Positions 5,319 through 50,321 of a DNA stretch of 64,000 bases are shown one piece after another. The notes beneath the pieces were generated by a model. It ran no database searches. It saw only the letters and a list, made by a program, of their open reading frames with translations, and was not told the DNA's origin. Origin of the DNA: an uncultured Pelagibacteraceae bacterium. Lineage in GTDB: Bacteria; Pseudomonadota; Alphaproteobacteria; Pelagibacterales; Pelagibacteraceae. A program made the position numbers and the translations under genes. How positions within the stretch are numbered: the stretch's first letter is position 1; each line of letters starts with the position of its first letter. The DNA lies in assembly GCA_902588625.1 (NCBI GenBank), contig CACIPU010000004.1, positions 1 to 64,000 of the forward strand. Reading direction: 5' to 3'.

Positions 5319-5684
5319 TTCTCTTACCCAAGCAATAAAAGCTTCGGCTGCGACTAGCCCAATTTTTTCGGAAATTCTTTCACCGTTTTTATATATAATT
5401 GTCGTTGGAACACCCCTTACACCAGCAGCACTACTAATATTAATTCCCTTATCCTCTACTGCAACAGTTCCAAAATTAACTTCATTTGCTATTGGGTCGT
5501 TAATTACTTCATTTTTAAGAACTTTATGTAACTGAATACATGGCTGACAATAAGATAAAGCTGAATATGTGACCACATAGGGCTTAGAATTTTCTAAAAC
5601 TTCTTTTTGAAAATTTTCATCTGTAATTTCATTTAATTTAGACATAAGATTATAGGAATTTAATAATTTTACTGTAAATGTCAA
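5307..5684 (-). CDS. Thioredoxin-like protein with CQPC active site
   Basis: SYCQPC, GVRGVPTTIIYKNGE (cis-Pro region); thioredoxin fold pattern. Confidence 0.7.
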   Translation of the reverse strand: MTFTVKLLNSYNLMSKLNEITDENFQKEVLENSKPYVVTYSALSYCQPCIQLHKVLKNEVINDPIANEVNFGTVAVEDKGINISSAAGVRGVPTTIIYKNGERISEKIGLVAAEAFIAWVRESIV

Positions 5685-10486: not shown

Positions 10487-11683
10487 TTAGTTGTATATAT
10501 AATCTCTTCGATTACTCGGGATAGAACTAAAATCTTTTACAATCTGAAGTTGGTATACTAGCAAATCTCTATAATGGAATGCAGCTGAACAGCTGGCGAG
10601 ATAAAATTCCCACATTTTGCAAAAACGTTCAGAATACATTTTTTTTGCTTTTTCCCTATTTTCTAAAAATCTGTCTAGCCAAGCTTTTAAAGTTTTGTCA
10701 TAGTGATGTATTAGACTCTCCATATCGGCCAATATTAAGCCTGTTTTTTCAATAGAATCTAAGAGATCGCTTCCACTAGGAACCAGACCCCCTGGAAAAA
10801 TATATTTCTGTATAAATGGTTGAGGAGGTCCCTTTGGTTCTGTTGAACCAATGGTATGAACTAAGCTCAGACCATCGTCAGTCATTAAATTATTTAATTT
10901 TTTAAAAAAAGTTTTATAAAATTTCCTACCAACGTGCTCTAGAAACCCCACTGAAACAATTCTGTTAAATTTTCCTTTTATTTTTCTATAATCTATTAAT
11001 TCAAAATGACATTGATTATCTAGTTTTAATTCTTTAGCCTTTTTAATACAATAATCATATTGATTTTTGCTTAATGTAACTCCTGTTACTTCACATTCAG
11101 ATTGTTTTGCAATCTCAAAACACATTGAACCCCAACCACATCCTACATCTAATACTCTTTGACCTGGACGTAAATCTAATTTTTTAATTATATGATCAAT
11201 TTTATTCTGTTGGGCGTTTTCAAGAGTATCAGTTGAAGATTTCCAATATCCACAGGAATATTGACGATGTTTTTTATCTAAAAATAAATTATATAAATCT
11301 TCTCCCAGGTCGTAATGATGTTCAACATTTTTTTTTGATTTACCTGGTAAATTATAATTTGTAAAAAATCTCCACACATGTAAAATTTTTTTAAAAGTAT
11401 AGCCAGCTGTATTGATTTCACTATGACCTAAATTTTTAAAAGTTAAATTTAAAAAATCTAATAGCGTACCATTTTCAATTTTAATATCACCATTCATATA
11501 TGCTTCTGGAAAAGAAAGGTCAGGATTAATTAATAGCTTCCAATTAAGATTTTTATTTAAAATTTTTAAAGTTAATGGTTTCTTAAGATTTGGATTTCCA
11601 CAAATAAATTTTTGTCCCAGATGGTCAATTAAAATTATACCATCTTTTTTATATATCTTTGAAAATAATCTAGCTATTAACAT
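10487..11683 (-). CDS. cfa: Cyclopropane-fatty-acyl-phospholipid synthase family methyltransferase
   Basis: VEHHYDLGEDLYNLFLD, YSCGYW, VLDVGCGWGSM, VGFLEHVGRKFY. Confidence 0.9.
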   Translation of the reverse strand: MLIARLFSKIYKKDGIILIDHLGQKFICGNPNLKKPLTLKILNKNLNWKLLINPDLSFPEAYMNGDIKIENGTLLDFLNLTFKNLGHSEINTAGYTFKKILHVWRFFTNYNLPGKSKKNVEHHYDLGEDLYNLFLDKKHRQYSCGYWKSSTDTLENAQQNKIDHIIKKLDLRPGQRVLDVGCGWGSMCFEIAKQSECEVTGVTLSKNQYDYCIKKAKELKLDNQCHFELIDYRKIKGKFNRIVSVGFLEHVGRKFYKTFFKKLNNLMTDDGLSLVHTIGSTEPKGPPQPFIQKYIFPGGLVPSGSDLLDSIEKTGLILADMESLIHHYDKTLKAWLDRFLENREKAKKMYSERFCKMWEFYLASCSAAFHYRDLLVYQLQIVKDFSSIPSNRRDYIYN

Positions 11684-11686
11684 AAT

Positions 11687-12571
11687 TTAGGCCGCAATAT
11701 TTTTGTCAGGATAAAAATCTAAACTTTTTAACTCTGACATCATTTTTTTTTCTTGATCCTTATTTAGTAAACTTAATGGTGGTATTATAAATTTATATTT
11801 TTCATCTTCTAATGACATAAAAGTATGTATCCCTGAAATTAAATTATTTTTATCAAAAATTGAACGTATAGCGCATAAGCGTTCATTATGTGTTTGTTTT
11901 TTTTTATTATGAAAATCATCATAAACTTTACGAGCTAAGTTTGCAGTAACATTACAGACTGCACTAATAATGCCTGCACAACCTAGCTTTAGACCTTTAA
12001 GTAATTTTGTTTCTGAGCCTGGAAAAACTAGAAAGTTTGGTATTTTTAAATCTTCATATAGATTGTAAGTACTATCCTTAACGCCAACTATTTGTTTCGG
12101 AAAATTTTTAACTAATTTTTCTATTACCTGAATACTAAATTTATACCCACTAAGCTTTTCAAAATTGTAAAGTATTATTTCACAGTTTGGAACTCTCTGG
12201 ATTACATTTGAAAAAAAATTGTAAACTTCTTCGTCGCCGTACTTGTAGTAAGCTGGGGGCATTATAAGAAATTTATTCATTCCGTTAGTTAAACTACGTT
12301 TCATTAACTCAACTGTTTCCTTAAGTGAATTGTTAGATGTGCCTATTAAGAAATTTTCTTTAAATTTGCTATTACAAACTTTATCTATTAATTTTTCTTT
12401 TTCATTTCTTGAAATTAACTGACCTGCGCCTGTACTTCCAAATATAGCGACTCCATGACAACCTTGGTCTATAAGTCTTTCTGCATGCGATATTGTAGAA
12501 TTAATATCTAAAGATAGATCTTTATCTACACAAGACATAGATGCTGCATAAATTCCTGGTTTGACTGCCAT
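11687..12571 (-). CDS. Dihydrodipicolinate synthase/N-acetylneuraminate lyase family aldolase
   Basis: GCHGVAIFGSTGAGQLIS, MPPAYYKYGDEEVYNFF, YNFEKLSGY, VGVKDST (Schiff-base Lys). Confidence 0.85.
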   Translation of the reverse strand: MAVKPGIYAASMSCVDKDLSLDINSTISHAERLIDQGCHGVAIFGSTGAGQLISRNEKEKLIDKVCNSKFKENFLIGTSNNSLKETVELMKRSLTNGMNKFLIMPPAYYKYGDEEVYNFFSNVIQRVPNCEIILYNFEKLSGYKFSIQVIEKLVKNFPKQIVGVKDSTYNLYEDLKIPNFLVFPGSETKLLKGLKLGCAGIISAVCNVTANLARKVYDDFHNKKKQTHNERLCAIRSIFDKNNLISGIHTFMSLEDEKYKFIIPPLSLLNKDQEKKMMSELKSLDFYPDKNIAA

Positions 12572-12623
12572 ATTTTTACCTCTTAACTTAATTAATTAAT
12601 ATAAATTATATAAAATTGAAAAA

Positions 12624-13559
12624 ATGAATCAAACAGCTTTAGTTATAATAAAATCAATGGGAATTGGTGATCTGGTAATTCTAAAGAGTAATATTGATGC
12701 AATTAGCAAATCTATTAATAAAAAAGTAGTAGTTCTAGCGCAGGCAAATACACGCGCATCTGAAATATTAAAATTTGACCCACATGTGCAGGAGGTAATC
12801 GATTTAGATAAAAAAGGATTTTTTAAAATCATTAAAAAAATTAAATCTAGAAATTTCAACCAATCATATATTTACAGTGATAGTTTAAGACTTTATCTGA
12901 TCTCAAAGTTTTCAGGAATAAAAAATAATTTTCAATATAGATTTTTTTCAAAAAGAAAAAAAAATTTCTTTAAAACTGCAAAAGAATTTACTGAGAAGAC
13001 TTTAAATTCCAAAATTGATCACGAATCAAAAATTTTTTGGGATGAAAATGAAATAGAAAATATGAAAAAAAAATTTAATATTTCAAATAAGACAAAAAAT
13101 ATTGTATGTGGAATTTCAGCATCTGGGCCAACAAAAAGGTGGGATGTTAAAAATTATATAAAATTATTTGAAAATCTAAATAGTAAATTTGCTTGTAAAT
13201 TTTTTATTGCCGCGGGTCCCAAGGATGAAGATCTCGTAATGGAAATTATGAGCTCTTCCTCAATAAAAGATAAATGTATTTCTTTTTCAAATATGACCAT
13301 TGCAGAAACAATACCTATTATTAGTGCCTGTCAAAATTTTATAGGAAATGATACTGGTTGGGCTCAAATTTCTGCAGCTTTAAATTTAAAATCACTAATT
13401 ATTTTTTGCGATAGCCCCAGCGAAGCTTATGGTGTTTGGAGAAATAATATTAAAATTATTGTGCCGGAAGGTTTACAAATCTGCCAACATAACACTAGAG
13501 GGAAGGACAAGATTTCTTTTGATGAAGTTTTGAAAAAATCTATAGAATTAATTAGCTAA
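12624..13559 (+). CDS. Glycosyltransferase family 9 (heptosyltransferase-like)
   Basis: IKSMGIGDLVILK N-terminus, ISASGPTKRW, FIGNDTGWAQISAAL, RGKDKIS. Confidence 0.8.
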   Translation: MNQTALVIIKSMGIGDLVILKSNIDAISKSINKKVVVLAQANTRASEILKFDPHVQEVIDLDKKGFFKIIKKIKSRNFNQSYIYSDSLRLYLISKFSGIKNNFQYRFFSKRKKNFFKTAKEFTEKTLNSKIDHESKIFWDENEIENMKKKFNISNKTKNIVCGISASGPTKRWDVKNYIKLFENLNSKFACKFFIAAGPKDEDLVMEIMSSSSIKDKCISFSNMTIAETIPIISACQNFIGNDTGWAQISAALNLKSLIIFCDSPSEAYGVWRNNIKIIVPEGLQICQHNTRGKDKISFDEVLKKSIELIS

Positions 13560-14067
13560 AGTCTGTTTTAATTATCAAATCTTTTGCTTCTGTTAACATT
13601 TGAGATATTTTAGTGCTATCTATATCCTTGTTTAGATCTGGATGAACCTTAAGCATTAATTTTTTATAATTTGACTCGATTTTTTCTTGAGAATCTCCCT
13701 TTTTGCAATTTAAAAGCTCATAAGCTTCATTTAAACTTATACTACTAGATCCTGGCGAGAAATTTGTTCCAGATGTATATGAAAATCTTCCTTGTTGTCT
13801 TAATCTATTTAATAATCTAAAAATCATAATTGCTTTAAAAAGGGATAAGCCAGATTTTAATTTTATTAAGGGTAATATTAATAAAAATATTGGAGCTGCT
13901 AATAAAATTCTACCGGCAATTAGTAGAATAATACCACCAAGTATAGAAAAAATGATAACTAGTATTCTTATGCTTTTCGAAATCTTTTTAACATTGGCCC
14001 TAGCAAACCAAGTCAAAATTAAGACTAAAATAATAAAAATAATTATACCCAAAAAGATTAAGTTCAT
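13552..14067 (-). CDS. Membrane-anchored DnaJ-domain protein
   Basis: Two N-terminal TM segments, C-terminal J-domain with HPD (KVHPDLNKD). Confidence 0.85.
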   Translation of the reverse strand: MNLIFLGIIIFIILVLILTWFARANVKKISKSIRILVIIFSILGGIILLIAGRILLAAPIFLLILPLIKLKSGLSLFKAIMIFRLLNRLRQQGRFSYTSGTNFSPGSSSISLNEAYELLNCKKGDSQEKIESNYKKLMLKVHPDLNKDIDSTKISQMLTEAKDLIIKTDFS

Positions 14068-14085
14068 ATATTAATGCTCATTTAA

Positions 14086-16170
14086 ATGAATATACCAAAA
14101 CTAAGAAAAGAAAAAACAGTCAAAAAGTACCATGGTTATGAATTAACTGATCATTACGCTTATGTTGATCAACCCCATAATATTCTTGAAGTTTTACAAA
14201 ATCCTAAAAAACTTTTACCTGAAGTAAGAAAATATTTGGAAGAAAATAATAAAATAGCGGAAGAGTATTTTAATGATACAAAAATTTTACAAAAAAAATT
14301 ATTTGATGAAATAAAAGGGAAAATACAGCTAGAAGATGAAAGTTTAAAATTTAAAGATGCTAGATATTTTTATTGGACGAAAACAACTAAAAAAGGAAAC
14401 TATGTTAAATATCTCAGACAAAAAATTGGATCATCTAATATAGAAACTTATTTTGATGGTGATAAAGAAAAAAAATTAAATAAGTCAAAATATTTTGGTC
14501 TTGGTTCCGTTTCTGTATCACATAATGATCGATTACTTGCGTACTCAATTGATTTAAAGGGTTCTGAGTACTATGATATATTTTTAAAAGATATTAAAAC
14601 GAATAAATTTATAGATGAAAAAATCAAAAATACATCTGGAAATATTACATGGAGCCTGGACTCGAAGAGTTTTTTTTATTCACCATTAGACAAATATCAT
14701 AGATCAAAAAAAATTTATAGACACACTTTAGGAACCTCAATATTAAAAGATAAACTTATATTTGAAGAAAATGATGATTCTTTTTCTGTAGGTATATCGT
14801 TAACCGCTGATGAAAAATTTTTTGTGATTGCCACTTCAGATTCAAATACGGTCGAAGAATACTTTTTTCCTTCAAAAAGTAAAACTATTAAACCTTTATT
14901 ATTTAGTAAACGTAAAAAGGGAATAAAATATTCAATAGATAGTTGGAAAAACTATTGGTACATTCATACAAACAAAAATGCTCTGGATTATCAAATCTTA
15001 CGCTGTAAGCATAGCAGAATTAAAAAATTAGAGACATTTATTCCACCAAAGGAAAAAACTATTATAGGTGGTTTAAATTTTCTAGATGATTATATTTTGA
15101 GGGCAGAAAAATCAAATGCTATTCCTAAAATGTTTATTAGAAATATTCATTCTAATGAAGAAGAAGAATTAATAATTTCAAAAGAGCCAGTTGGATCACC
15201 AGGAATTTCTCTAATGCAAAAAAAAACAAATACGACAAAAATTTGGATCTCTTGGGACAGTTTAGCTACTCCAGGGAAAGTTTATGAGTATGATATTATT
15301 ACTAAAGAAAAAAAGTTAGTAAAAGAGACTAAAATTCCTTCAGGTCACAATCCCGATAACTATGTAGTAGAAAGATTGAAAGCTATCGGAAGTGATGGTC
15401 AAAAAATCCCTATAACTTTAGTAAGGAGAAAAGATGTTAAACTTGACGGTAAGTCAAAACTGCTTCTTTATGCTTATGGCTGCTATAAGCATAGCGTACC
15501 TGTTTCATTTAGTGCTTCAAAATTTTGTCTCGTTGATCGAGGAATTATATTTGGAATCGCACATGTTAGAGGTGGAGGAGAATTAGGTGAAAATTGGTAC
15601 TTAGAAGGAAAACTATTAAAAAAAAAACAAACTTTTTCTGACTATATAAGTGTTTGTGAGTATTTAATAAAAAATAAATACACATACAGAGGTGGCCTTG
15701 CATTTTATGGAGGGAGCGCTGGTGGAACTACTGGTGCTGCTGTTATTAATATAAATCCTGAATTATTTTTTGCAGCATTGCTTTTAGTACCTTATGTTGA
15801 TTGTTTAACAACTGCTTTAAATGATAAATTACCTTTGACACCTGGTGAATATGAAGTTTTTGGAAATCCAAAAAAATATAAAGAATATTTTGAATATATA
15901 AGATCTTATTCTCCTTATAATAATTTACGTAAAGCTAATTATCCACCTATGTTAGTTACTTCTTCAATTTTTGATAACCGAGTCCTATACTCAGAACCTA
16001 CAAAATATATTGCAAAGCTGCGCGAATTAAAAAGTGACAATAATGTTCAATTACTAAAATGTAAGTTAGAAGCTGCGGGTCATGGTGGTGCATCGGGACG
16101 GGACAACGCAATAATAGAATTGGCTGAAGAATATTCATTTATTCTAAAAAATGCAAAAATAAATAAATAA
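14086..16170 (+). CDS. ptrB: Prolyl oligopeptidase family / oligopeptidase B (S9A)
   Basis: ARYFYWTKT, AHVRGGGELGENWY, FYGGSAGGTTGA, AGHGGASGR catalytic His region. Confidence 0.85.
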   Translation: MNIPKLRKEKTVKKYHGYELTDHYAYVDQPHNILEVLQNPKKLLPEVRKYLEENNKIAEEYFNDTKILQKKLFDEIKGKIQLEDESLKFKDARYFYWTKTTKKGNYVKYLRQKIGSSNIETYFDGDKEKKLNKSKYFGLGSVSVSHNDRLLAYSIDLKGSEYYDIFLKDIKTNKFIDEKIKNTSGNITWSLDSKSFFYSPLDKYHRSKKIYRHTLGTSILKDKLIFEENDDSFSVGISLTADEKFFVIATSDSNTVEEYFFPSKSKTIKPLLFSKRKKGIKYSIDSWKNYWYIHTNKNALDYQILRCKHSRIKKLETFIPPKEKTIIGGLNFLDDYILRAEKSNAIPKMFIRNIHSNEEEELIISKEPVGSPGISLMQKKTNTTKIWISWDSLATPGKVYEYDIITKEKKLVKETKIPSGHNPDNYVVERLKAIGSDGQKIPITLVRRKDVKLDGKSKLLLYAYGCYKHSVPVSFSASKFCLVDRGIIFGIAHVRGGGELGENWYLEGKLLKKKQTFSDYISVCEYLIKNKYTYRGGLAFYGGSAGGTTGAAVININPELFFAALLLVPYVDCLTTALNDKLPLTPGEYEVFGNPKKYKEYFEYIRSYSPYNNLRKANYPPMLVTSSIFDNRVLYSEPTKYIAKLRELKSDNNVQLLKCKLEAAGHGGASGRDNAIIELAEEYSFILKNAKINK

Positions 16171-16188
16171 AAAATTAGTCTTTAAATT

Positions 16189-16506
16189 TTAAAAACACCC
16201 CTTGGACTCAAATCCTGTGATCATATCACCTTCATCGACAGTAAATTTTCTTACACATTTTAAACCATATCTTTTAGATTGATAAATTAGATTTCTAAAA
16301 CCTTTTTCGTCTCTTAATTCTTCATTAGGTTGTCCTAATTCTATTAAAACATGTCTTTGATTTTTGCCGATAAACATAGATAATTTTTGATTTTCTTTTT
16401 TGACTGTTTCTGAAATTTTTTTATTAACAGTTTCGCAGCTGGTTAACAAAATGAATAGTGAAAGTGTCATGGATAGTAAATTACGTCTCATAAAACAACT
16501 TAACAT
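16189..16506 (-). CDS. Putative small lipoprotein
   Basis: Signal peptide ending in LLTSC lipobox; start probably an internal Met (MRRNLLS). Confidence 0.55.
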   Translation of the reverse strand: MLSCFMRRNLLSMTLSLFILLTSCETVNKKISETVKKENQKLSMFIGKNQRHVLIELGQPNEELRDEKGFRNLIYQSKRYGLKCVRKFTVDEGDMITGFESKGCF

Positions 16507-16647
16507 AGAATTTAACGAATTAAACTAACCCTCAAGTTGAAATTTTGTGCACAATAAAATTTAAAAAAATAAGTTAATTTATTGTTATTAGCAAAGAAGT
16601 AATTAGAGTCTTGAATCTAAAATAAATAACAATTTAAGGAGAAAAAT

Positions 16648-17934
16648 ATGTTGGATAAATATTTCAACTATAGAAAACATAAAACAGATTTTAAAACAGA
16701 AGTAATAGCTGGAGTGTCAACATTTTTGACAATGGCTTATATTATGTTTTTGAATCCGGTTATACTTGCTGATGGTGGGTTTGACTTTGGTGGTGTTTTC
16801 ACAGCAACAGCCCTTGCTGCGGCATTGGCTTGTTTCATAGCTGCTTTTTACGCAAAAACATGGCCTGTTGGTCTTGCGCCTGGAATGGGAATAAATGCAT
16901 TCATTGCTTATGGAGTTTGTTTGGGTATGCAATATACTCCAGCAGAAGCACTTGGTGCTGTTCTTGTAGCCGGTGTAGTGTTCTTAATAATTTCACTAAC
17001 TCCAATTAGAGCTTGGCTAATTAACTCAATTCCAAAAAGTTTAAAACTAGGAATTGGTGCAGGTATTGGTCTATTCTTAGCTATTATTGGTTTCCAATTA
17101 ATGGGACTTACTTCTGATAATCCAGTAGTACTAGTTCAACTTGGTGACCTTTCTAATCCTTTACTTCTTTTAGGTGCAGGTGCATTTATATCGATGATCG
17201 TAATGGAAAAAATGAAAATTAAAGGAAATATAATTATAGGAATTATTGCCTTTAGTATCATTGCTTGGGTTACTGGCTTAGGTAAATTTAATGGAGTAGC
17301 TTCTATGCCTCCTCCGATGACTCATTTATTTGCATTTGATTTAGGAGCTGCACTTTCAGCTTCAATGGTAACAGTAATTTTTACTCTGTTCTTCATTGAC
17401 TTTTTTGATACTGCAGGAACTTTAACGAGTGTTGCTAATGTTTCAGGAAAAATTGGAAGCAATGGTAAGATTGAAGATGTAGACAAAATGATGTTGTCAG
17501 ACAGTGTATCAACTGTTGCTGGAGCTGTAATGGGAACTAGTACGGTTACTACTTATGTTGAGTCTGCCGCTGGAGTTAAAGCTGGCGGAAGAACAGGAAT
17601 GACATCACTTGTTATAGGGATTTTATTCTTAGCAATGTTGTTCTTATCACCATTAGCTACAAGTTTACCAAAAGAGATAGATGCAGCAGCTCTTATTTAT
17701 ATTGCCACTTTATTTGTTCGTAATATTAAGGACATAGAATGGGATGATATAGGTGAAGCTGGACCTGCGGTCCTTGCAATGATTGCAATGCCATTTACTT
17801 ACTCTATTTCAAATGGAATAGCTTTAGCGTTTGTTTCTTATGCTGCTATTAAAATTTGCACAGGAAGAACAGATGTTAGTCCTGCTATTTGGGTGATTGC
17901 TATATTAAGTCTTATAAGCTTTATAGTAGGTTAA
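16648..17934 (+). CDS. AzgA/PbuG-type (NCS2-like) purine permease
   Basis: TEVIAGVSTFLTMAYIMFLNP, PVGLAPGMGINAF, DFFDTAGTLTSVAN, GTSTVTTYVESAAGVKAGGRTGMTS; Shine-Dalgarno aaggag just upstream. Confidence 0.9.
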   Translation: MLDKYFNYRKHKTDFKTEVIAGVSTFLTMAYIMFLNPVILADGGFDFGGVFTATALAAALACFIAAFYAKTWPVGLAPGMGINAFIAYGVCLGMQYTPAEALGAVLVAGVVFLIISLTPIRAWLINSIPKSLKLGIGAGIGLFLAIIGFQLMGLTSDNPVVLVQLGDLSNPLLLLGAGAFISMIVMEKMKIKGNIIIGIIAFSIIAWVTGLGKFNGVASMPPPMTHLFAFDLGAALSASMVTVIFTLFFIDFFDTAGTLTSVANVSGKIGSNGKIEDVDKMMLSDSVSTVAGAVMGTSTVTTYVESAAGVKAGGRTGMTSLVIGILFLAMLFLSPLATSLPKEIDAAALIYIATLFVRNIKDIEWDDIGEAGPAVLAMIAMPFTYSISNGIALAFVSYAAIKICTGRTDVSPAIWVIAILSLISFIVG

Positions 17935-26334: not shown

Positions 26335-26784
26335 ATGCAAATATTTATAGGCGGAATCGGTTGCTTTTGGGATGAAACTGAATATCAAGATGTTCCTGGT
26401 ATTATTTCTACCGAATGTGGATATTGTGGTGGAAAAAATCCAACTGTATCTTACGAGCAAGTTTGTGGCGGTGACACCGAACACATAGAAGTTGTTAAAG
26501 TTACATTTGACCCTGAAATAATTTCTTATGAAGATATTACTAGATTATTCTTCAAAATCCACGATCCAACGACTCTAAATCGCCAAGGCCCCAATGTTGG
26601 TTATCAATACCGTTCAGAAATTTTCTATACTAATGATGATGAAAAAAAATCTGCTGAAAAAATATTAGATGAAGTGAACAAAGAACTTAATGGAAAAGTT
26701 GTAACAGTTATTCGAAAAGAAAAAAACTACTGCAAAGCTGAAGAATACCATCAAAAATATTTCGAAAAAAGAAATAAAAGATGA
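26335..26784 (+). CDS. msrA: Peptide methionine sulfoxide reductase A
   Basis: GGIGCFW, TECGYCGG, SYEQVCGGDTEHIEVVKVTFDP, HDPTTLNRQGPNVGYQYRS. Confidence 0.9.
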   Translation: MQIFIGGIGCFWDETEYQDVPGIISTECGYCGGKNPTVSYEQVCGGDTEHIEVVKVTFDPEIISYEDITRLFFKIHDPTTLNRQGPNVGYQYRSEIFYTNDDEKKSAEKILDEVNKELNGKVVTVIRKEKNYCKAEEYHQKYFEKRNKR

Positions 26785-26966
26785 CTTTAGTTTCAACAGA
26801 TTGGCTCAACGAAAATTTAGATAAAGTTAAAATTATTGATGCGTCCTGGCATTTAGTTAAAAATAGAAATGCAGTTGAAGAATACAATAAAGAACATTTA
26901 GAAAATGCAATATTTTTTGACTTAGATAAAAATTCTAACCAGAGAAAAGATTTATTGAAAAAGTAG
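26781..26966 (+). pseudogene. sseA: 3-mercaptopyruvate sulfurtransferase (rhodanese) N-terminal fragment, truncated at a junction
   Basis: VSTDWLNENLDKVKIIDASWHL...EEYNKEHLENAIFFDLDKNSNQ is a rhodanese N-terminus; runs into rpsP sequence and stops. Confidence 0.75.
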
Positions 26967-27268
26967 GTTTTTTTAATCCATTATTACCAAAAACAAAAAA
27001 AGAAAGAATAAATTTAGAAATAGAAAGAATAAAACATTGGATTAGTAAAGGTGCCAAACCAACTCTAAGAGTATCAAGAATATTAGGTGAAGCAGATATT
27101 TATCCTATGCCACCAAAAGGGAATAATCCATTAAAGGCAATTCCGAAAAAAGATAGAAAAAAAAATTCATCTGAACCTAAAAAAGAGGAAGCAAAAAAAG
27201 CAGCTGAACCTAAAAAGGAAGAACCTAAAAAGGAAGAACCTAAAAAGGAAGAACCTAAAAAAAACTAA
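26948..27268 (+). pseudogene. rpsP: 30S ribosomal protein S16 lacking its N-terminus; Lys/Glu/Pro-rich C-terminal extension
   Basis: Frame reads RFIEKVGFFNPLLPKTKKERINLEIERIKHWISKGAKPTLRVSRIL then KKEEPKKEE repeats; no N-terminal MLKIRLARGG-type segment; followed by trmD. Confidence 0.8.
27206..27265 (+). repeat. 15-bp tandem repeat gaacctaaaaaggaa (3 full copies plus a 4th degenerate)
   Basis: Direct reading; encodes EPKKE repeats in the S16 C-terminus. Confidence 0.95.
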
Positions 27269-27958
27269 ATGTGGACATCAAGAATATTTACTTTATATCC
27301 TGAATTATTTCCAGGGCCGTTGGATATTGGGCTTTACAAAAAAGCAATTGAAAAAAAATTATGGTCCTTGGAAGTAGTAAACATAAGAGATTATTCATCC
27401 AATAAACACAAAACAGTAGACGATACTCCGTTTGGAGGTGGTTCTGGAATGTTAATGAGAGCAGATGTAATAGCTAATGCATTAGATAAAAATATTTTTA
27501 ACAAAGACGAAAGAATTATATATTTATCCCCAAAAGGAAAAAAGTTTGAGCAAACTGATGCTAAAAAAATGTTAAATAAAAATTTAAATATAATATGCGG
27601 ACATTTTGAAGGTGTTGATCAAAGATTACTAGAAACCAGAAATATAGAAGAAATTAGTGTAGGAGATTTTATATTATCAGGTGGAGAAGTTGCAGCTTTA
27701 GTCATAATTGATGCAATCGTAAGATTAATACCTGGCGTAATAGGAAACAGTAATTCATTAGATGAAGAGACTTTTGAAAGGAATCTGTTAGAATATCCTC
27801 AATATACAAAACCCCAAATATGGGAAAAAAAGGATATTCCTGAGGTATTATTAAGCGGAGATCATGCTAAAATTAAAAACTGGCGTTTAGGTCAATCTGA
27901 GAGTATAACACAACGCCGACGTCCTGATTTATGGACAAAATATAAAAAAAATAAATGA
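27269..27958 (+). CDS. trmD: tRNA (guanine37-N1)-methyltransferase
   Basis: [66 protein letters not shown]. Confidence 0.95.
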
Positions 27959-28482
27959 AAAATATAGAAGAAATAAACAAAGATAGTGTTAAAAAAATTT
28001 TAGCAAAAAAAAAGATTCCTGAATTTTCTGCAGGTGATACTCTTAAAGTAGGGGTGAGAATTGTTGAAGGCAAAAGGGAAAGAATTCAATTTTTTGAAGG
28101 AGTTTGTATTGCAATAAAAAATAGAGACTTAAACTCTTCCTTTACTGTTCGTAAAATTTCATTTGGAGAAGGTGTTGAAAGAACTTTTGCATTATATAGT
28201 CCAATTATTGGATCTATAAAGGTTGTAAGATCAGGTAGAGTAAAAAGAGCTAAACTATATTTTTTGAGAAGTAGAAAAGGTAAATCTGCAAGAATTGCTG
28301 AAAAAATTAAAAAAAGTATTGGTCTTGATGTTTCTGAACAAATGGTTGAAAAAGAAATAATTAGTAAAGAAGCAGAAAATACTAAATCAGAAATAAAGTC
28401 AGAAGAAAAAGCTGAAAAACTTGAAAAAAATATTACATCTAAAGAAGAACAAAAAAAAGAATTAAAGATTAAAAAAAAATAA
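27955..28482 (+). CDS. rplS: 50S ribosomal protein L19 with Lys/Glu-rich C-terminal extension
   Basis: [55 protein letters not shown]; tail [22 protein letters not shown]. Confidence 0.95.
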
Positions 28483-28494: not shown

Positions 28495-29898
28495 ATGCCC
28501 AACACTCTCTACGACAAAATATGGATTGAACATATGATTCATCAACAAGATGATGGTACTGCTTTAATATACGTAGATAGGCATCTTGTTCACGAAGTAA
28601 CGAGCCCACAAGCTTTTGAAGGTTTAAGATTATCAAATAGAAAAGTAAGAAAGCCAAACCTTACGCTTGCTGTGGCAGACCATAATGTTCCTACATCCAA
28701 CAGATCGGAAGGAATAAAAGATAAAGAATCTAAAATTCAAGTGGAAGTTTTAGAAAAAAACTGTAAAGAATTTGGAATAAAACTTTTTGATATAAATGAT
28801 AAAAGACAAGGTATAGTTCATATAATTGGACCAGAGCAAGGTTTCACTCAACCAGGTACAGTAATTGTTTGTGGAGATAGTCATACAGCAACACATGGAG
28901 CATTTGGTGCACTAGCTTTTGGAGTAGGTACTTCAGAAGTTGAACATGTATTAGCGACACAAACATTAATACAAAAAAAATCAAAAAATCTTAGAGTAAA
29001 CGTTACAGGAAAATTATTAGTTGGAGTGACTGGTAAGGATGTTATTTTACAAACAATAGGTAAGATTGGAACAGCTGGAGGAACAGGTACAGTCATAGAG
29101 TACAGTGGAAATGTTATTACTAATTTAAATATGGAACAACGAATGACAATATGTAATATGTCAATTGAAGCTGGAGCGCGAGCAGGTCTTATTGCACCAG
29201 ATGACAAAACCGTTCAATATTTACAAAATAAACCAATGTCACCTAAAAAAGAAAATTGGGATAAAGCAGTCGAGTATTGGTCTAAACTTAAATCTGACAG
29301 GGATGCAAATTTTGACCAAGAAATAGAAATTATAGGTGAACAAATTAATCCAATGGTAACGTGGGGCACTTCACCACAAGATGTAGTTTCAATTACAGAA
29401 ATGATTCCAGATCCAGAAAAAGAAAAAGATCAAGATAGAAGAACCGCTATGAATAGATCATTAAGTTATATGGGTCTAAAACCTAATACTAAAATGACAG
29501 ATATAAAAATAGATAGAATTTTTATTGGGAGCTGCACTAATGGACGAATTGGAGATTTAAGAGATGCTGCAAATATTTTAAAAGGTAAAAAAATAGCTCA
29601 ACATGTAAGTGCCATGGTTGTGCCGGGTTCTGGACTTGTTAAGCAACAAGCAGAAGAAGAAGGTATTGATAAAATTTTTACTCAAGCAGGGTTTGATTGG
29701 AGAGAACCAGGATGTTCAATGTGTTTAGCTATGAATGAAGATAAGCTTAACCCACAAGAAAGATGCGCTTCAACTTCAAATAGAAATTTTGAGGGACGCC
29801 AGGGTCGTGGAGGCAGAACTCACTTAGTAAGCCCAGCTATGGCTGCAGCTGCAGCTATTGATGGTCACTTATCTGATGTAAGAAAGTTTAAAAATTAA
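28495..29898 (+). CDS. leuC: 3-isopropylmalate dehydratase large subunit
   Basis: [73 protein letters not shown]. Confidence 0.97.
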
Positions 29899-29899: not shown

Positions 29900-32071
29900 A
29901 TGAAAAAGTTTAATATTTTAAAAGGTGTACCTGCCAATTTACCAATGATTAATATTGATACTGATATGATTATACCTAAGCAATTTTTAAAGACTATAAA
30001 AAGAACTGGACTTGGAAAGAGTTTATTTTTTGAAATGAGATATGATGAAAAAGGTTGGCGTTCAGGTGTTGCAGTTGAAAGAAAAAAACTTTCACAATGG
30101 TTTTTTAATATTAAGAAGTTTTCTCAAGAATTATTAGATGAGTTAGAAAAATTAAAAAACTGGCCTGATAAAGTTAAACTTATGCAAAAGAATTGGATAG
30201 GAAAGTCCTTCGGGTGTGAAATTAATTTTAAAATTCAAGAAAAAAGTGACGATAACGAAATAAAGGTCTTTACAACAAGGCCAGATACAATATTTGGAGC
30301 ATCATTCGTTGCACTTTCAATTGACCATCCAATAGCTAAAAATTTTGAAAATGATAAAAATTTTCAAAATTTTAAGTTAGAATGTTCAAAGTCTGGAACA
30401 ACGGAAGAAGCTTTAGCAATTGCTGAAAAAATTGGTTTCAATACAAAATTATTTGCTCAACATCCATTCAAGAAAGATATAAAACTACCAATTTTCATAG
30501 CTAATTTTGTTCTAATGGATTATGGAACTGGAGCTATATTTGGATGTCCAGCTCACGATCAAAGAGATTTGGATTTTGCTAAAAAATATAAACTTAACGT
30601 TTTGCCTGTTGTTAGACCTAAAGATTCTAATCCTGAAAAATTTAAAATTGATAATGAGGCATATACTGAAAATGGGATATTATTTAACTCAGATTTTTTA
30701 AATAATTTAACAGTCGATAAAGCTATAAATAAAGCAATAGAAGTAATAACAAAAAAAAAATTGGGAGAAAGAAAAATTACATTCAGGCTTAAGGATTGGG
30801 GTGTTTCGAGACAGAGATATTGGGGCTGCCCCATTCCAATAGTATACAATCAAAAAGGTGAAGCGTTACCAGTTGAAAAAAAAGATCTTCCTATTTTATT
30901 ACCTGACAAAGTTGATTTGAATACAAAAGGAAATCCTCTGGCAAATCATCCTACGTGGAAATTTGCTAAACTTGAAAATGGAGAAAAAGTTATAAGAGAA
31001 ACAGACACGCTTGATACTTTTGTAGATTCTTCTTGGTATTTCTTAAGATTTTGCTCACCAAAATATAAAAAATATGGATATGAAATTGAGGATATTAATT
31101 ATTGGATGCCCGTAGATCAATATATAGGAGGTGTGGAACATGCAATTTTACATCTTCTTTATTCAAGATTTTTTATGAAAGCATTAGCATTTAAAAACAA
31201 AAAATTTAATTATTCTGAACCATTCGAAAGCTTATTTACACAAGGTATGGTTTGTCATGAAACTTACAAAAACGAGAATAATAAATGGTTATACCCAGAT
31301 GAAATAGAAAAAAATTCTGATGGTAATTTGATAACTAAAAAAGACAAAAAAAAAGTAATAGTTGGGCCATCTGAGTCGATGTCAAAATCTAAGAAAAATA
31401 CAATAGATCCCGAAGAAATGATAAAAATATATGGAGCTGACTCGATAAGATGGTTTATGTTGTCAGATAGTCCACCTGAAAGAGATGTTCAATGGTCACA
31501 AGAAGGTGTGTCAGCATCTTTTAAATTTATACAAAAAATTTGGAAATTAAATTATGATATCTTGAATAAAAAGGAATCTTCTTCCTCAAATTCTGATATC
31601 TATCTTAAAAAAGCTGTTAATAGAACGGTATATAATGTGACTAAAAATTTAAATAATTTTCAATATAATGTTGTTATTGCTAATCTGCACGAAATATACA
31701 ATATATTTTATGAACACGTAAATAATGATAAATCATCCAAAGATACACTAAGAAATGAATGGGAAAAAATAATAATGCTTCTATTACCACTTACACCACA
31801 TCTTGCACACGAGTGTTGTGAAAAACTAAGCAAAAAATTTTATTGGCCTAAATATGATCTTAAATTACTAGAGGAAAAAAATTCTAAAATAGTAATACAA
31901 GTTAATGGAAAAAAGAGAGGCATAATAGAAATGCCTACAGATTCGAAAGAACAAATTGTTATAAAAAAATCAAAAGAAATTGATAATGTAGTAAAACATA
32001 TTGGAAATACTGAGATTATTAAAAATATTTATATTAAAAATAAACTTGTAAACTTTATAACTAAAAAATGA
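29900..32071 (+). CDS. Chimeric ORF: LeuD N-terminus (about aa 1-50) fused in frame to leucyl-tRNA synthetase lacking its N-terminal region
   Basis: aa 1-50 [33 protein letters not shown]...[11 protein letters not shown] is LeuD; from [18 protein letters not shown] onward is LeuS (editing domain, SMSKSKKNT, anticodon-binding); no HIGH motif. Confidence 0.9.
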
Positions 32072-40974: not shown

Positions 40975-41409
40975 ATTTCAATAAAAACTAAATTTGGCTG
41001 GATATCTGCTTTTGAGGTAAAAAATGCCATTACAGAAGTCAAATTCGGTAAATATAAATCTATAGGTAAAAGCAAAAATCTCAAGAAATTCAAATTAAAT
41101 TTGAAAAAATACTTCTCAAAAAAAAGTAAATTTTTTAATATTAATACTAAGGTTGATGGCAATTTTGTCCAAAAAAAAATATGGAACGAACTAAAGAAAA
41201 TAAAATTTGGTCAAACAAAAACTTATGGGGAAATAGCTAAAAAAAATAAATTATCTCCTCGACATATTGGAAAAATATGCGGCCAAAATAAAATTTTACT
41301 AGCCATCCCTTGTCATAGGGTAGTTAGATCAGATGGTACTATGGGAGGGTTTTCTGCAAAAGGAGGAATTTCCCTTAAGAAAAAATTATTAAAATTTGAA
41401 AATTGTTAA
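40963..41409 (+). CDS. ogt: Methylated-DNA-[protein]-cysteine S-methyltransferase
   Basis: [31 protein letters not shown]. Confidence 0.92.
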
Positions 41410-42677
41410 CTTGGTTTATTCATTGAAACAAAAAAGTCAGCATTATTTTTTGTGGTTTTCAATTTAGAAAGAAGAAATTCTATTGCATCCATAGTTCCCA
41501 TTGAACTTAATATTTTTCTTAAAACATTCATCTTAAGCAAATCGTCATTTTTGAATAGCAATTCTTCTCTTCTAGTTCCAGACCTAGTTATATCAATAGC
41601 TGGGTAGATTCTTTTATCTGAAATTTTTCTATCTAAAATTAATTCACTATTTCCTGTTCCTTTAAATTCTTCAAAAATTACTTCATCCATTCTACTTCCA
41701 GTATCAATTAACGCTGTTGATATTATAGTGAGAGAGCCTCCTTGTTCTATATTTCTTGCTGCACCAAAAAATCTTTTTGGTCGTTGAAGTGCATTAGCAT
41801 CTACTCCTCCAGTTAAAACTTTTCCAGAGCTCGGCACTACTGCATTATATGCTCTTCCTAGTCTTGTTATTGAATCCAAAAGAATAATTACATCTTTTTT
41901 GTGTTCTGTTAATCTTTTAGCCTTTTCAATAACCATTTCAGCTACCGCAACGTGTCTCGAAGCTGGCTCATCAAAAGTAGAACTTATGACTTCTCCTTTT
42001 ACAGATCTTTGCATATCAGTTACCTCTTCTGGTCTTTCATCAATAAGTAAGACCATTAAGTAACATTCAGGATGATTCTTCGCTATAGAGTTTGCTATAT
42101 TTTGTAATATAATTGTTTTTCCTGCTTTTGGTGGAGATATAATTAATGATCTCTGTCCTTTACCAATTGGGCTAACAAGATCAATTAGTCTTGCTGTTTG
42201 ATCTGGTTTTTTTTCAATTTTAGTAGTCTCAACCTCCATAACAAGTTGAGAATCTGGATATAAAGGTGTTAAGTTTTCAAAAGCAATTTTATTTCTTGAT
42301 TTATCAGGATTGTCAAAATTTATTTTATCAACTTTTAGTAAAGCAAAATATCTTTCTTGGTCTTTTGGAGCTCTTATTTCACCCTCAACAGAGTCCCCAG
42401 TTCTTAATCCAAATCTTCTTATTTGACTTGGACTAACATAAATATCATCTGCTCCGGGAAGGTAATTTGACTCTGTAGCTCTCAAAAAGCCAAAACCATC
42501 TTGTAAAACTTCAAGAGTTCCACCACCAATTATTTGTTCATTTTTTTCAGCAAGTTTTTTTAAAATTGCAAATAAAATTTCTTGTTTTCTAAGTGTACTT
42601 GGGTTTTCAACTGAAAGTTTTTCAGCTTGTGAAATAAGTTCCGCAGGTGTTTTTTTTTTAAGTTCTTCTAAGTTCAT
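41406..42677 (-). CDS. rho: Transcription termination factor Rho
   Basis: [60 protein letters not shown]; fully canonical. Confidence 0.98.
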
Positions 42678-42742
42678 ATGTGGGGTTTTGTTTATTGAGA
42701 AATGTAATATTAATATAATATCTTTTTAAAAAATTACAAGTC

Positions 42743-43186
42743 TCATAGTGGTTTAAAAACAACTATTATTATTATGCCTATTAGTAAAACAGTAGGTATT
42801 TCGTTGATAATTCTATAAAATTTAGATGAATAAGAGTTATTGTTTTCAGAAAATTTTCTTACACATTCAAATAAAAAGAAGTGATAAATAGTCAAAATAA
42901 TAACAAATAATAGCTTTAACTGAAGCCAAAGAAAACTTACATTTTCTATACCAATAATGTGTATTAAAAGCACTCCAAAAATCCAGGATATAATCATTGC
43001 AGGATTCATAATATAAATAAAAAGTCTTCTTTCCATAATTTTAAAAGTAGATGTTAAATCTTCAGATTTGTTATTTAAAACAGCATCACTATGGTAGACA
43101 AAAATTCTAGGTAAATACAAAAGGCCTGCCATCCAAGAAATCACGGCTATAAGATGAATTGATTTAAATAATAAATATGTATTCAA
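42743..43186 (-). CDS. hemJ: HemJ-like protoporphyrinogen oxidase (UPF0093 membrane protein)
   Basis: SIHLIAVISWMAGLLYLPRIFVYH, four TM helices, heme-gene context. Confidence 0.85.
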   Translation of the reverse strand: MNTYLLFKSIHLIAVISWMAGLLYLPRIFVYHSDAVLNNKSEDLTSTFKIMERRLFIYIMNPAMIISWIFGVLLIHIIGIENVSFLWLQLKLLFVIILTIYHFFLFECVRKFSENNNSYSSKFYRIINEIPTVLLIGIIIIVVFKPL

Positions 43187-43188
43187 TA

Positions 43189-44574
43189 TTATTTTCTATC
43201 TTTTATTGGATTAAGCGATAGTATTTTTTCATTATACCTAAATTTAGATTTCTTTTTAGAGCTGTAATGAAGAGAATTGATTACGGTAATGGTTGATGTT
43301 TCTGGTGCAATCAATATGGAAACTCCCCCATAGCCACTCATTCCAAATACTACTCGATCTTCTAAACCTTTATAATCCATGTGAAAGTAACCCCCGTATG
43401 CTTTTGCTGGATTGTAAGGAGGATCTCTAAATTCTTGAGTAGTTTTTTTCTTTATTCTTCTTTCATGAATATCCTTAAAATATTTACCTACACAAGTATC
43501 ATTTTGATAATCATCCATTATACTTTTTGCAATTCTTAAATAATCATACCTATCTGCATAAAACATAGAATTTGCTTTTCCAGCGTCAGGAAGCTCTCTA
43601 CTTTTAAAAAAAAGAACACTATTTTTAATTTTTACATGTCTTTGGAAAACATCCTCTAAAAATTTTTCAAATTGATCACCTGTTTTATATTTTATGTAAT
43701 TAAAAACTATATTTGGTAACAGTCCGTGATAATTATATTTAGGTTTAGATTTTTTTTTATCTTTCATCATAAACATATAACGAGCAAGATTTTCATCATC
43801 ATTGCTTGTGCCATCCCACATAGCAACATCAGTAACGTGTTTATGATCTCCCGCATTCATGTTCAAAAGATCTATTAATTTTTGGTCATGATAAAGAGTT
43901 TTTTCAATTAGTGGCCAATCATTTAATTTTGAATCTATGCTATCAATATAACCTGCACAAATTGCATGGCCCGCAAGTAATCCAATCATACTTTTACCAA
44001 CAGAATTGGAACGAAATTTTGTTTCGTCATCAAAAAATTCTCCTAGTCTTTCTTTGGGTGATTTTTCGTCTATAACAATTTTATCACCCTCAAAAAGTAA
44101 ATAACTAAGTATAGCTGACTCTTTTAATTCCTTTTTTGCAGTCTCATCGTTCCTTAAATTTGATTTAAATTCATAAGTTTCTTTCGAGGGATTTATTTCA
44201 TATGTATGAAACGAGAAAGAATATGGATGATTAATAGTTTTCCATAAATAATAAATTAGTGTATCCCTGTTAGGTTCTGCGTTTGGACGAACTTGCCACC
44301 TATCTTTATAAAATTTTATTTTTAAATTATTTTCTGCTCTCGCATTACATCCATTATCATACCAAGCTTGGCTTCCTTTTTCTAAAGTCTTGCATATTTC
44401 TTTAGTTTTTATAATTAAATATTGATGATGACCATTATCATGCAGCCACTTATTAAAATCTGTTACATTATTTTTGAAATCGCTTTTATCTTCAAATCCA
44501 GACGCAATATTATCCGCTTTCACTGGAACGCTAAATAATAAAAATATATAAAAAATTATTAGAAGTTTTTTCAT
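43189..44574 (-). CDS. Secreted serine hydrolase (beta-lactamase/penicillin-binding-like)
   Basis: Signal peptide; FRSNSVGKSMIGLLAGHAI (SxxK-like), YGGYFHMDYKGLEDRVVFGMSGYGG. Confidence 0.7.
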   Translation of the reverse strand: MKKLLIIFYIFLLFSVPVKADNIASGFEDKSDFKNNVTDFNKWLHDNGHHQYLIIKTKEICKTLEKGSQAWYDNGCNARAENNLKIKFYKDRWQVRPNAEPNRDTLIYYLWKTINHPYSFSFHTYEINPSKETYEFKSNLRNDETAKKELKESAILSYLLFEGDKIVIDEKSPKERLGEFFDDETKFRSNSVGKSMIGLLAGHAICAGYIDSIDSKLNDWPLIEKTLYHDQKLIDLLNMNAGDHKHVTDVAMWDGTSNDDENLARYMFMMKDKKKSKPKYNYHGLLPNIVFNYIKYKTGDQFEKFLEDVFQRHVKIKNSVLFFKSRELPDAGKANSMFYADRYDYLRIAKSIMDDYQNDTCVGKYFKDIHERRIKKKTTQEFRDPPYNPAKAYGGYFHMDYKGLEDRVVFGMSGYGGVSILIAPETSTITVINSLHYSSKKKSKFRYNEKILSLNPIKDRK

Positions 44575-45402
44575 TTAATATTTCCCTACTTTTTTAGCAT
44601 CTCTATAAAAAATTTTAGATAATTCTTCATTGGCTTTATTTTTTAATATCTTGTCATATTTATTCATTAATTCAACTGGTCTTTTTGTGTGCTCATGATA
44701 CTTAAATTTATCTATTCCTCTTGCTTGTTGCACATAGACTTTTCCAATTACTTGATCAACATTCGCTCCTATATAGCTTTGAATAACAAATCCAATTCTT
44801 CTGCTATTGCTTCTGTTTGGAGTAGAGCCATGAACAATCATTGGATGATGAAGCGATAGCTGACCAGCTTTTAATTCATTGGGGACTGTGTCCTCTAATG
44901 GTACGTTTTGAACTGTTTGACCTCGAGTTAATAAATTGTTTTCATTAAATGTGTCCCTATGTTCTCGGATTTCTTCTTTATGAGTACCACGCCACATTCT
45001 CATGCAGCCATTTTCTTCATTTGCATCAGTAACAGCTAACCAGGCAGTAACCCAGTTGTGTGGCTCAAAACCAATATATTTTGCATCTTGGTGCCAACTA
45101 ACAAAACCTTTGTTATCAGGATCTTTAATAAATAAAGTTGTTCCACCAATTAAAATATCTTTTCCAATAATACTTTCGACGACATCTAAAATTTTAGAAT
45201 TATGGCAGACTTTATCAAAAACAGGTGAAATCATATGAACATAATTTCTTCCTAATCCATATAGTTCATCTGGCCATTTTTTTTCAATTTTTTCTATCTC
45301 TATTTTAATTTCATTTGCCTCATCCGCCGTTAAAATATCTATGGGCGCAACATAACCATGATCATTATAATCTTTAAGTTGCTTAGGCGTTAGTGAAGTC
45401 AT
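44575..45402 (-). CDS. Phytanoyl-CoA dioxygenase (PhyH) family protein
   Basis: SWHQDAKYIGFEPHNWVTAWLAVTDANEENGCMRMWRGTHK, HGSTPNRSNSRRIGF. Confidence 0.88.
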   Translation of the reverse strand: MTSLTPKQLKDYNDHGYVAPIDILTADEANEIKIEIEKIEKKWPDELYGLGRNYVHMISPVFDKVCHNSKILDVVESIIGKDILIGGTTLFIKDPDNKGFVSWHQDAKYIGFEPHNWVTAWLAVTDANEENGCMRMWRGTHKEEIREHRDTFNENNLLTRGQTVQNVPLEDTVPNELKAGQLSLHHPMIVHGSTPNRSNSRRIGFVIQSYIGANVDQVIGKVYVQQARGIDKFKYHEHTKRPVELMNKYDKILKNKANEELSKIFYRDAKKVGKY

Positions 45403-46283
45403 TTTTCTATTTCATTTCCATTTACACATTTATAACCAATGTGTTCTAACTTGAGTTTTTTGCAGGTTTTTTTTGTTTGTCTAAGCTCATCATAATAAAT
45501 CACTTGTGTTGTGTAGAGAGACTTAGGAATATAATCTTCTCTAAACCCCCCTCTGTATAATCCCCATTTCCAATAAGGCTTTGTACCTTTCATTTTAGTT
45601 TTTCCTTGATGGTTAAGTTTCAATTCTCCATTTACCCAAATTTTAAAAAATCCTTTATCCTCTTTATCTGACCATTTAACATGGACAATAAGATCATTCC
45701 ATTTACCCAAAACTTCTTTTTCTTTTAAAAGTTGTTTAGCATTAAATTGTGAACCACTAGTTCTTCTCGCTAAATTGCTTGGATTGCCCATTCTGTGATC
45801 AATACAAATCCAGTAACCACCTGTATGATCCCAAAACATAAACGTAGGGAAATCATTTTTATTGGCATCTTGATGAAATTGCGAAACTACATTCCATCCC
45901 TTTCCACTAAAATGCTTGTGCTCCTTGGGAAAATAGATTGACCAGGCATACCAAAGTTCACCTTTTCCGCTTCCCCAGTCCATCTGACCATTATGAAGTT
46001 CTGATCTTTCTGCATCATTTTTACAATCGTCATAACCTCCTTTACTGATCCCACAATCACCAGGTCGAACTTCAAATCTCATACTCTCTTCTCCAGACCT
46101 AACTGGATGCCCATCTTTAGCTTTGACCTTTTCAAAAAAATAACTCTTTTTGTGTGATACAGTCGAAACTTCAGTTTTATTAAGGCCTATAGCAAGATCT
46201 TTTGAAAACTTAATTTTTTTTCCAGCTTCAGCGTTGTTACTGAATAACAAACCTAGAACCAAGATCCCTAAAAAAAATTTCAT
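45399..46283 (-). CDS. Secreted polysaccharide lyase-like protein (heparin-lyase-I-like fold), copy 1
   Basis: Signal peptide MKFFLGILVLGLLFSNNAEA; RFEVRPGDCG, ELWYAWSIYFPKE, QFHQD, WNDLIVHVKWS, FKIWVNGEL, KWGLYR. Confidence 0.7.
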   Translation of the reverse strand: MKFFLGILVLGLLFSNNAEAGKKIKFSKDLAIGLNKTEVSTVSHKKSYFFEKVKAKDGHPVRSGEESMRFEVRPGDCGISKGGYDDCKNDAERSELHNGQMDWGSGKGELWYAWSIYFPKEHKHFSGKGWNVVSQFHQDANKNDFPTFMFWDHTGGYWICIDHRMGNPSNLARRTSGSQFNAKQLLKEKEVLGKWNDLIVHVKWSDKEDKGFFKIWVNGELKLNHQGKTKMKGTKPYWKWGLYRGGFREDYIPKSLYTTQVIYYDELRQTKKTCKKLKLEHIGYKCVNGNEIEK

Positions 46284-47071
46284 TTAAGGTTACCAACTAC
46301 ATCATCTTTTTTTTTACCAGCTCTAATCTCATCATAATATACTATTTGTGTAGGGATTTTTTTTTTATACATTAGTTCGTAAGTGCTTACCTTTGATCTA
46401 TATATTCCAAACTTGAAATATGTTTTAACCCCTTTGGATTTTGTTTTTCCTTTAAAATCCTGAACTAATTTATTATTAACCCAAACTTTAAAAAAACCAT
46501 CATCTTTATGGCTCCAATTTACATTAACTAAAATATCATTCCATTTTCCTGACATCTGCTCTCGGGTTAATATTTGAGTAGAGGAAACAGTATATTCAGG
46601 AACATAATTTTCAATCCAATATCCTCCATGTTTATTTTTAAACATCCATATGACATGTTTTTTTTCTTGATGAAATTGGGCCAACATAGTTGAGGCCGGT
46701 TGTACATTTTTAAAATCTTTTGGCAGATAAATTGACCAAGCATACCATCTCTCACCTTTGCTAACTCTATATCTTCCACTTAATTCATGTCTTTCACGAT
46801 CCTTTTTACAATCGCTCCATCCACCATCTCTGTCTTTTCCACAATCCCCAGCTCTAAGTTCAAATCTTATTGATTTTTCTCCCATTCGTACGGGATGACC
46901 ATCTTTCTTATCGACGACTTGCATTCCATATTTTTTATAATAACTTCCAGTTAAACTTTTTTTAAACTTGCTCCCTGAAACAGTATCTTTTGGAAGATTA
47001 ACTGCTTTCCCAGCAAATCCATTATTGCAAAATAATAAAGTTAAAACCAAAATTCCTAAAAGTTTTTTCAT
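46280..47071 (-). CDS. Secreted polysaccharide lyase-like protein, copy 2 (tandem paralog)
   Basis: RFELRAGDCG, ERWYAWSIYLPKD, QFHQEKK, WNDILVNVNWS, FKVWVNNKLV, KFGIYR; parallels copy 1 throughout. Confidence 0.7.
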   Translation of the reverse strand: MKKLLGILVLTLLFCNNGFAGKAVNLPKDTVSGSKFKKSLTGSYYKKYGMQVVDKKDGHPVRMGEKSIRFELRAGDCGKDRDGGWSDCKKDRERHELSGRYRVSKGERWYAWSIYLPKDFKNVQPASTMLAQFHQEKKHVIWMFKNKHGGYWIENYVPEYTVSSTQILTREQMSGKWNDILVNVNWSHKDDGFFKVWVNNKLVQDFKGKTKSKGVKTYFKFGIYRSKVSTYELMYKKKIPTQIVYYDEIRAGKKKDDVVGNLK

Positions 47072-47730
47072 TAAATTATCCTACCAATTTCATTTAGTTC
47101 GTTCGACTCAAAAACTGTTTTTTTATTATGATTTTGAGCAATGGCTACCATAGCTTTTGCAACATTTTGAGCTTGAATAGGTTTGTATTTTTTTAAATTT
47201 CCTAAAAAAAATATAGATAAAGCTTGCATTACAAATATACCAATACGTTCACCCAATCTAAAAACCTTTCTGTTTCCAAGCAAAATTGATGGTCGTATTA
47301 CTGCAAGTTTTGGAAAATTTAAATTATTTAATTCTTTTTCTACCTGGCCTTTGTTTTTTAAGTAAGAACTAGAACTGTTTGGGTTTGCGCCTAATGATGA
47401 CACATAAATAAAAACCTTTACTGAATTTAATTTTGAAATTTTTGCAACATCTACAGGTATATTATACTCGACTCTTCTATATTCATTTTTGTCTGGGGTA
47501 TCTTTTCTAGTTGTTCCAATACAAAAAAAACAATCTCCTCCTAAGATTGAATCTTTGTGCTTTTCTAAATTATTAAAATCAGTTTGAATAATCTCAACTT
47601 TTGGATCGTTGTTATTGGGCACCGAACGAACGAATAATTTTATCTTATTGTAATTATTATTTTGCTTAACAACATTTAAAAGTTCGTTGCCAATTAACCC
47701 AGAAGAACCAAATATTAATGCGGTTTTCAT
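47071..47730 (-). CDS. NAD(P)-binding oxidoreductase (HTATIP2/epimerase-like)
   Basis: ALIFGSSGLIGNELL Rossmann motif, GDCFFCIGTTRKD, YVSSLGANPNSSSSYLKNKGQVE, RPSILLG. Confidence 0.8.
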   Translation of the reverse strand: MKTALIFGSSGLIGNELLNVVKQNNNYNKIKLFVRSVPNNNDPKVEIIQTDFNNLEKHKDSILGGDCFFCIGTTRKDTPDKNEYRRVEYNIPVDVAKISKLNSVKVFIYVSSLGANPNSSSSYLKNKGQVEKELNNLNFPKLAVIRPSILLGNRKVFRLGERIGIFVMQALSIFFLGNLKKYKPIQAQNVAKAMVAIAQNHNKKTVFESNELNEIGRII

Positions 47731-47741
47731 TTTTGCAAATA

Positions 47742-48302
47742 TTAACTATCCCATTTAACATTAAACATTACCTCGTTGCGACGAAATAACGGGAGCGTCC
47801 AAGGTGGATTATAAGTTGCTTTAATTGCAGAACCATTCATTAAAATTTTATCTTCTAAAAGTTTTTCACGAAGAATTTCAGTATATTTTATAAAATTTTT
47901 ATCAGAAGATCTTCCCGAATATCTTATTACTGCAAAATATCCTTCTTCCATTAATGTAATTTCAACATCCGAATTAGTTGGAATGGGTGTCGTTTTTTTA
48001 TTAAATTCTGAAGGAAGATAGAACTGCATAAAGGACACATTATTTTTTTTCATCTGAGTAACTGGTGTTGTCATTTCTATCTTTTTAGAAGAATTATTGT
48101 CACCTGAAATATAATTAAAAAGTTTTCTAAAAGTACTACTATCCTTATCATTAATAGCTTGAACTACAAGACGTTCTGAGTACTTTCTGATTTCATATAT
48201 TTCATTTTTATGAATAATATCAAATTTTACTTCTTCGGTTGCCATCGTAGTATTAGTACTTAAAAATAAACCAATAGCCAAGATGCCTAAAAGTTTTTTC
48301 AT
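47742..48302 (-). CDS. SOUL heme-binding family protein, secreted
   Basis: Signal peptide; YEIRKYSERLVVQA, LFNYISGDNNSSKKIEMTTPV, YFAVIRYSGRSS. Confidence 0.88.
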   Translation of the reverse strand: MKKLLGILAIGLFLSTNTTMATEEVKFDIIHKNEIYEIRKYSERLVVQAINDKDSSTFRKLFNYISGDNNSSKKIEMTTPVTQMKKNNVSFMQFYLPSEFNKKTTPIPTNSDVEITLMEEGYFAVIRYSGRSSDKNFIKYTEILREKLLEDKILMNGSAIKATYNPPWTLPLFRRNEVMFNVKWDS

Positions 48303-50318: not shown

Positions 50319-50321
50319 TTA

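Follow-up and report, generated by a model that had tools for sequence, protein, structure and literature searches.

A truncated sseA joined to a start-less rpsP in a Pelagibacteraceae contig is almost certainly an artefact of single-cell amplification and assembly

In the genome of an uncultured marine SAR11 (Pelagibacteraceae) bacterium, a truncated sseA frame runs directly into an rpsP gene lacking its start codon, which raises the question of whether the chromosome has really lost the DNA between them or whether the join arose between the cell and the contig. We find that the broken sseA/rpsP pair is almost certainly not a true deletion, but an artefact of single-cell amplification and assembly. 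The window analysed is a stretch of 64,000 nucleotides, corresponding to bases 1–64000 of contig C4 (78,993 bp) of genome G000 (989,831 bp in 44 contigs, 78% complete). The closest relatives among the genomes compared are Pelagibacteraceae, the nearest named ones being single-cell assemblies whose contigs carry SPAdes-style NODE names, and G003, a relative with large contigs, was used as the reference for gene order. In our view, with a probability of about 97%, contig C4 is a chimera of three distant chromosome pieces (segments A, B and C), derived from multiple displacement amplification (MDA) and retained by the assembler, and a genomic deletion is not favoured. An MDA chimera was among the explanations offered by an earlier sequence-only reading of this stretch, and it is the one that the evidence supports.

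The sseA 5' part (26781..26954, + strand) is the last piece of segment A and holds codons 1–58 of about 271, with 84% identity to residues 1–58 of G003 SseA (tblastn). The sequence-only reading had correctly placed a breakpoint at 26940–26970 and described a truncated sseA of 61 residues, the open reading frame at 26781–26966 consisting of 61 codons, of which 58 align to G003 SseA and the last three are foreign. It had also rightly recognized, from about 26948, an S16 frame without start codon or N-terminus: the rpsP 3' part (26948..27268, + strand) begins at codon 31, the first 30 residues being absent, and shows 92% identity to residues 31–105 of G003 S16 and a match to PF00886 (Ribosomal_S16, E-value 1.3e-13) from profile position 22–23 to 62 of 62. 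The C-terminal tail of this S16 (27160–27268) is rich in Lys, Glu and Pro and encoded by tandem 15-nt repeats (EEPKK); its length varies among relatives, and the contigs of several of them break at or near it. The two gene parts meet at junction 1 (26947..26954), where AAGATTTA provides 6–8 nt common to the sseA and rpsP sides, the relatives having AAAGATTT(A/G)CC in sseA and GG(A/T)AGATTTATTG in rpsP at this site. This agrees with the short common sequence that had been suspected near agatttattgaaaaa, and the comparison suggests that, in all likelihood, the sseA frame passes into rpsP codon 31 via these shared nucleotides.

A second join, overlooked in the earlier reading, lies 3.1 kb downstream of the first. 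Between the two is segment B, a 3.1-kb fragment with the order rpsP3'-trmD-rplS-leuC-leuD5' that bridges sseA5' and leuS3'. Its three internal genes are intact and all on the + strand: trmD (27269..27958; PF01746, E-value 2.5e-54; 74–86% in relatives), rplS (27955..28482; PF01245, E-value 3.2e-44) and leuC (28495..29898; PF00330, E-value 1.3e-180; 82% to G003). The segment ends with the leuD 5' part (29900..30055, + strand), which covers codons 1–52 of about 199 and is 90% identical to residues 1–52 of G003 LeuD. Junction 2 (30049..30055) is the heptanucleotide AAAAGGT, common to the leuD and leuS sides and located inside an imperfect 12-nt match, GATG(A/G)AAAAGGT, when the leuD and leuS genes of relatives are compared at the join. 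Segment C then starts with the leuS 3' part (30049..32071, + strand), which runs from nt 519 (codon 173–174) and has 82% identity to residues 168–846 of G003 LeuS. As an artefact of this join, leuD and leuS form an in-frame fusion of 723 residues (29900..32071, + strand), with Pfam matches to Aconitase_C at residues 1–51 and to LeuRS domains beyond residue 97.

The three segments have separate origins in G003. Segment A, from the trp genes to sseA5', is collinear with G003 contig C5 at 2.6–28.4 kb (+), whereas segment B maps to 64.7–61.5 kb (−) of the same contig, so that the two are mutually inverted. Since the G003 sseA and rpsP loci lie in opposite orientation, 36 kb apart, junction 1 is an inverted join, and the description of this site as a deletion junction does not hold: the join is inverted in G003 terms and is one of two that bound the bridging fragment. 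Segment C, comprising leuS3'-lptE-holA-parB-parA onward, is collinear with G003 contig C4 from 131.8 kb (+); segments B and C would lie in the same direction, about 80 kb apart, if these two G003 contigs join through ubiH, which is found at both contig ends.

Comparing synteny with relatives, as had been proposed in the earlier reading, showed the sseA, rpsP and leuS loci to be separate and intact. In same-family relatives the orders msrA-sseA-acrA-acrB, ffh-(NTF2)-rpsP-trmD-rplS-leuC-leuD-leuB and DUF3576-leuS-lptE are uninterrupted where covered, the exceptions to complete native loci being contig ends and one chimeric single-cell contig, L202. Neither the sseA-rpsP nor the leuD-leuS join is present in any of the same-family relatives (other species) in which the loci are covered. 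Contig L202 (AG-430-O13_NODE_18, from a single-cell assembly) has an inverted join of its own at about position 5010, where 5 kb of sequence carrying rpsP and ffh is flipped beside trmD, the latter being without its first 28 residues.

Another difference in gene order is found at 41406–57905 of the window, where rho-hemH-hemE-aroE-coaE-dnaQ lies beside ogt and mnmE, unlike in G003 and as in another relative, G015. The rho-hemE-dnaQ order was considered as a further chimera and rejected, as G015 shares the order of the window; judging from these gene orders, the difference seems to stem from a natural rearrangement on the G003 side. Natural Pelagibacterales rearrangements resemble the contig C4 joins in that the order of segments differs from that of a relative, as with rho-hemE beside ogt in the window and G015 but not in G003. 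However, the natural breakpoints found here are intergenic and common to other genomes, whereas the two contig C4 joins interrupt four genes and are confined to the G000 assembly.

Two of the missing gene halves are found in register at contig ends elsewhere in G000. Contig C24 opens at base 1 with sseA residues 74–271, after which come acrA, acrB and one further gene, and contig C22 ends, at base 3, in leuS residues 1–157, downstream of DUF3576 and porins. The same DNA sample thus contains native sequence for sseA 3' and leuS 5'; rpsP 5' and leuD 3' are missing from the assembly. The earlier suggestion of looking elsewhere for intact sseA and rpsP was therefore rewarded in the case of sseA, with residues 74–271 on C24, and not in that of S16, for which nothing else was found in G000. 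Likewise, the accompanying idea of a second gene copy fails for rpsP, which has no second complete copy in the assembly, while for sseA the other half does exist, a mere 45 nt past the break but on contig C24. Searches of G000 for rpsP 5', leuD 3', leuB and ffh gave no result, for the first two also at permissive settings. Because these four are missing from the assembly, the true path around segment B is known from relatives only. An NTF2-like gene that opens contig C34 was considered as the native neighbour of rpsP and dropped, since the distance is wrong and ffh is absent from C34.

The missing continuation of segment B on both sides could also be explained if this segment came from a second SAR11 cell, co-sorted or contaminating. 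We regard this as very unlikely, as trmD is single in the genome, neither rplS nor leuC has another close copy, and the contamination estimate for G000 is 1.55%; the result would in any case remain an artefact.

The gene sseA can be followed up to nt 174 at the join and resumes at nt 220 with the first base of C24; in leuS, C22 stops at nt 473 and the first base past the join is nt 519, which leaves a gap of exactly 45 nt in both cases. The single-cell mode of SPAdes ends with k = 55. A branch contig at a fork in such a graph would have 55 nt in common with the other path, and cutting 100 nt from its end would leave a 45-nt gap to the fork; we infer that the 45 nt correspond to a 100-nt contig-end trim minus a 55-nt graph overlap at a 55-mer fork. 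A published marine single-cell pipeline ran SPAdes with --careful --sc, removed 100 bp at either end of every contig and retained those >2000 bp (Stepanauskas et al. 2017, PMC5519541). The smallest contig of G000 has 2054 bp, as the 2000-bp cut-off predicts.

This explanation was devised after the two gaps had been seen, and a third junction is its sole test. In a survey of split genes, in which 771 G003 ORFs, taken from 777 kb of sequence, were compared with G000, eight genes were split between contigs. Five of the eight were ordinary contig-end pairs, and the other three (sseA, leuS and a tauA-like gene) had a break in the interior of a contig. At the third junction, at about position 25426 of contig C10, residues 1–253 of the tauA-like protein are joined to residues 226–475 of DnaB, the N-terminal part of dnaB not being found in G000. 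The remainder of the tauA-like gene begins at base 1 of contig C31; the last common nucleotide is nt 760 and C31 runs from nt 806, so that the identical 45-nt geometry is present at all three junctions. Forks in the graph imply that the native path as well as the chimeric one had reads in the library, and therefore that intact sseA and leuS were present in the sample.

Signs of amplification are also found elsewhere in the assembly. Contig C16 has inverted ends (1–5561 and 11255–16815) that are 100% identical over 5561 bp, and so has contig C12 (1–5512 and 19798–25309, 5512 bp). Perfect fold-backs are a classic product of MDA with phi29 polymerase, and these two contigs are fold-back amplification chimeras. 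The common sequences at the joins in contig C4 have 6–8 nt (junction 1) and 7 nt (junction 2), as deduced from relatives because the strain's own native sequence over the joins is missing. Among random joins in G000, at least 6 nt are common in 0.5% of cases, and at least 7 nt in 0.17%.

We infer phi29 amplification as the source of the joined molecule, and SPAdes at k = 55 with a 100-nt end trim as the procedure that gave the contigs their ends. During MDA, displaced 3' ends would have re-primed on other templates at 6–8 matching nucleotides. This would have produced a join between sseA and the interior of rpsP that is inverted with respect to G003, and a direct one between leuD and the interior of leuS, and the 3.1-kb rpsP-leuD fragment would thereby have come to bridge two distant loci. 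The assembler would then have taken the chimeric path, with the true continuations splitting off as C24 and C22.

In a study of MDA chimeras, 85% were inverted and most were primed at 2–21 matching nucleotides; for joins beyond 10 kb, inverted (69) and direct (58) cases were about equal, and matching bases were found in about a third (Lasken and Stockwell 2007, PMC1855051). The two contig C4 joins, as judged from relatives, fall within this 2–21 nt range, and like those chimeras they connect distant segments, often inverted, at a few matching bases, in an assembly that also contains fold-back contigs. Contig C4 differs from typical MDA chimeras in holding two joins 3.1 kb apart, and the join distances, which in G003 amount to 36 kb and about 80 kb, belong to the rarer class of >10 kb.

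A pure assembly or scaffolding misjoin, made without any chimeric DNA molecule, would equally produce a wrong contig with the true continuations present as other contigs, and we give it even less credit than a second cell. De Bruijn assemblers work with k-mers of 21 or more, longer than the 6–8 nt in common; neither join contains Ns, and C12 and C16 document joined molecules in the same assembly. Since an assembler can make such a join only from reads spanning it, joined molecules must have existed.

A real cellular rearrangement, that is, an sseA/rpsP inversion combined with a separate leuD-leuS joining event, is hardly credible, even though the sequence is continuous over both joins and segments A and B are mutually inverted in G003, as an inversion would produce. 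It would break rpsP and leuS, both held to be essential, plus two more genes within 3.1 kb, and it is seen in no relative examined. The reciprocal junction of such an inversion was not seen in the (incomplete) G000 assembly. Nor is the native arrangement absent, as it would be after a real deletion or inversion: sseA and leuS each have their two halves in the assembly, in register; that the leuS ends lie 45 nt apart on two contigs, and likewise those of sseA, fits an intact gene at a graph fork. It is just as hard to believe that the cell truly carried both joins together with intact rpsP and leuS in unassembled DNA, for example after a recent amplification and rearrangement.

The 45-nt rule (100-nt end trim minus 55-mer overlap) has a practical use. 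It provides a chimera test that needs no reads, for single-cell assemblies made by the same procedure, its signature being that the missing part of a broken gene begins exactly 46 nt past the break, at base 1 of another contig. For the organism itself, the junction region holds no biological novelty and is not a real feature, and the value of the finding is as a caution on data quality rather than as a discovery. Contig C4 gives rise to false annotations, namely a LeuD-LeuS fusion, a start-less S16 and a truncated SseA, and to false gene neighbours, with msrA-sseA placed beside rpsP and leuC beside leuS.
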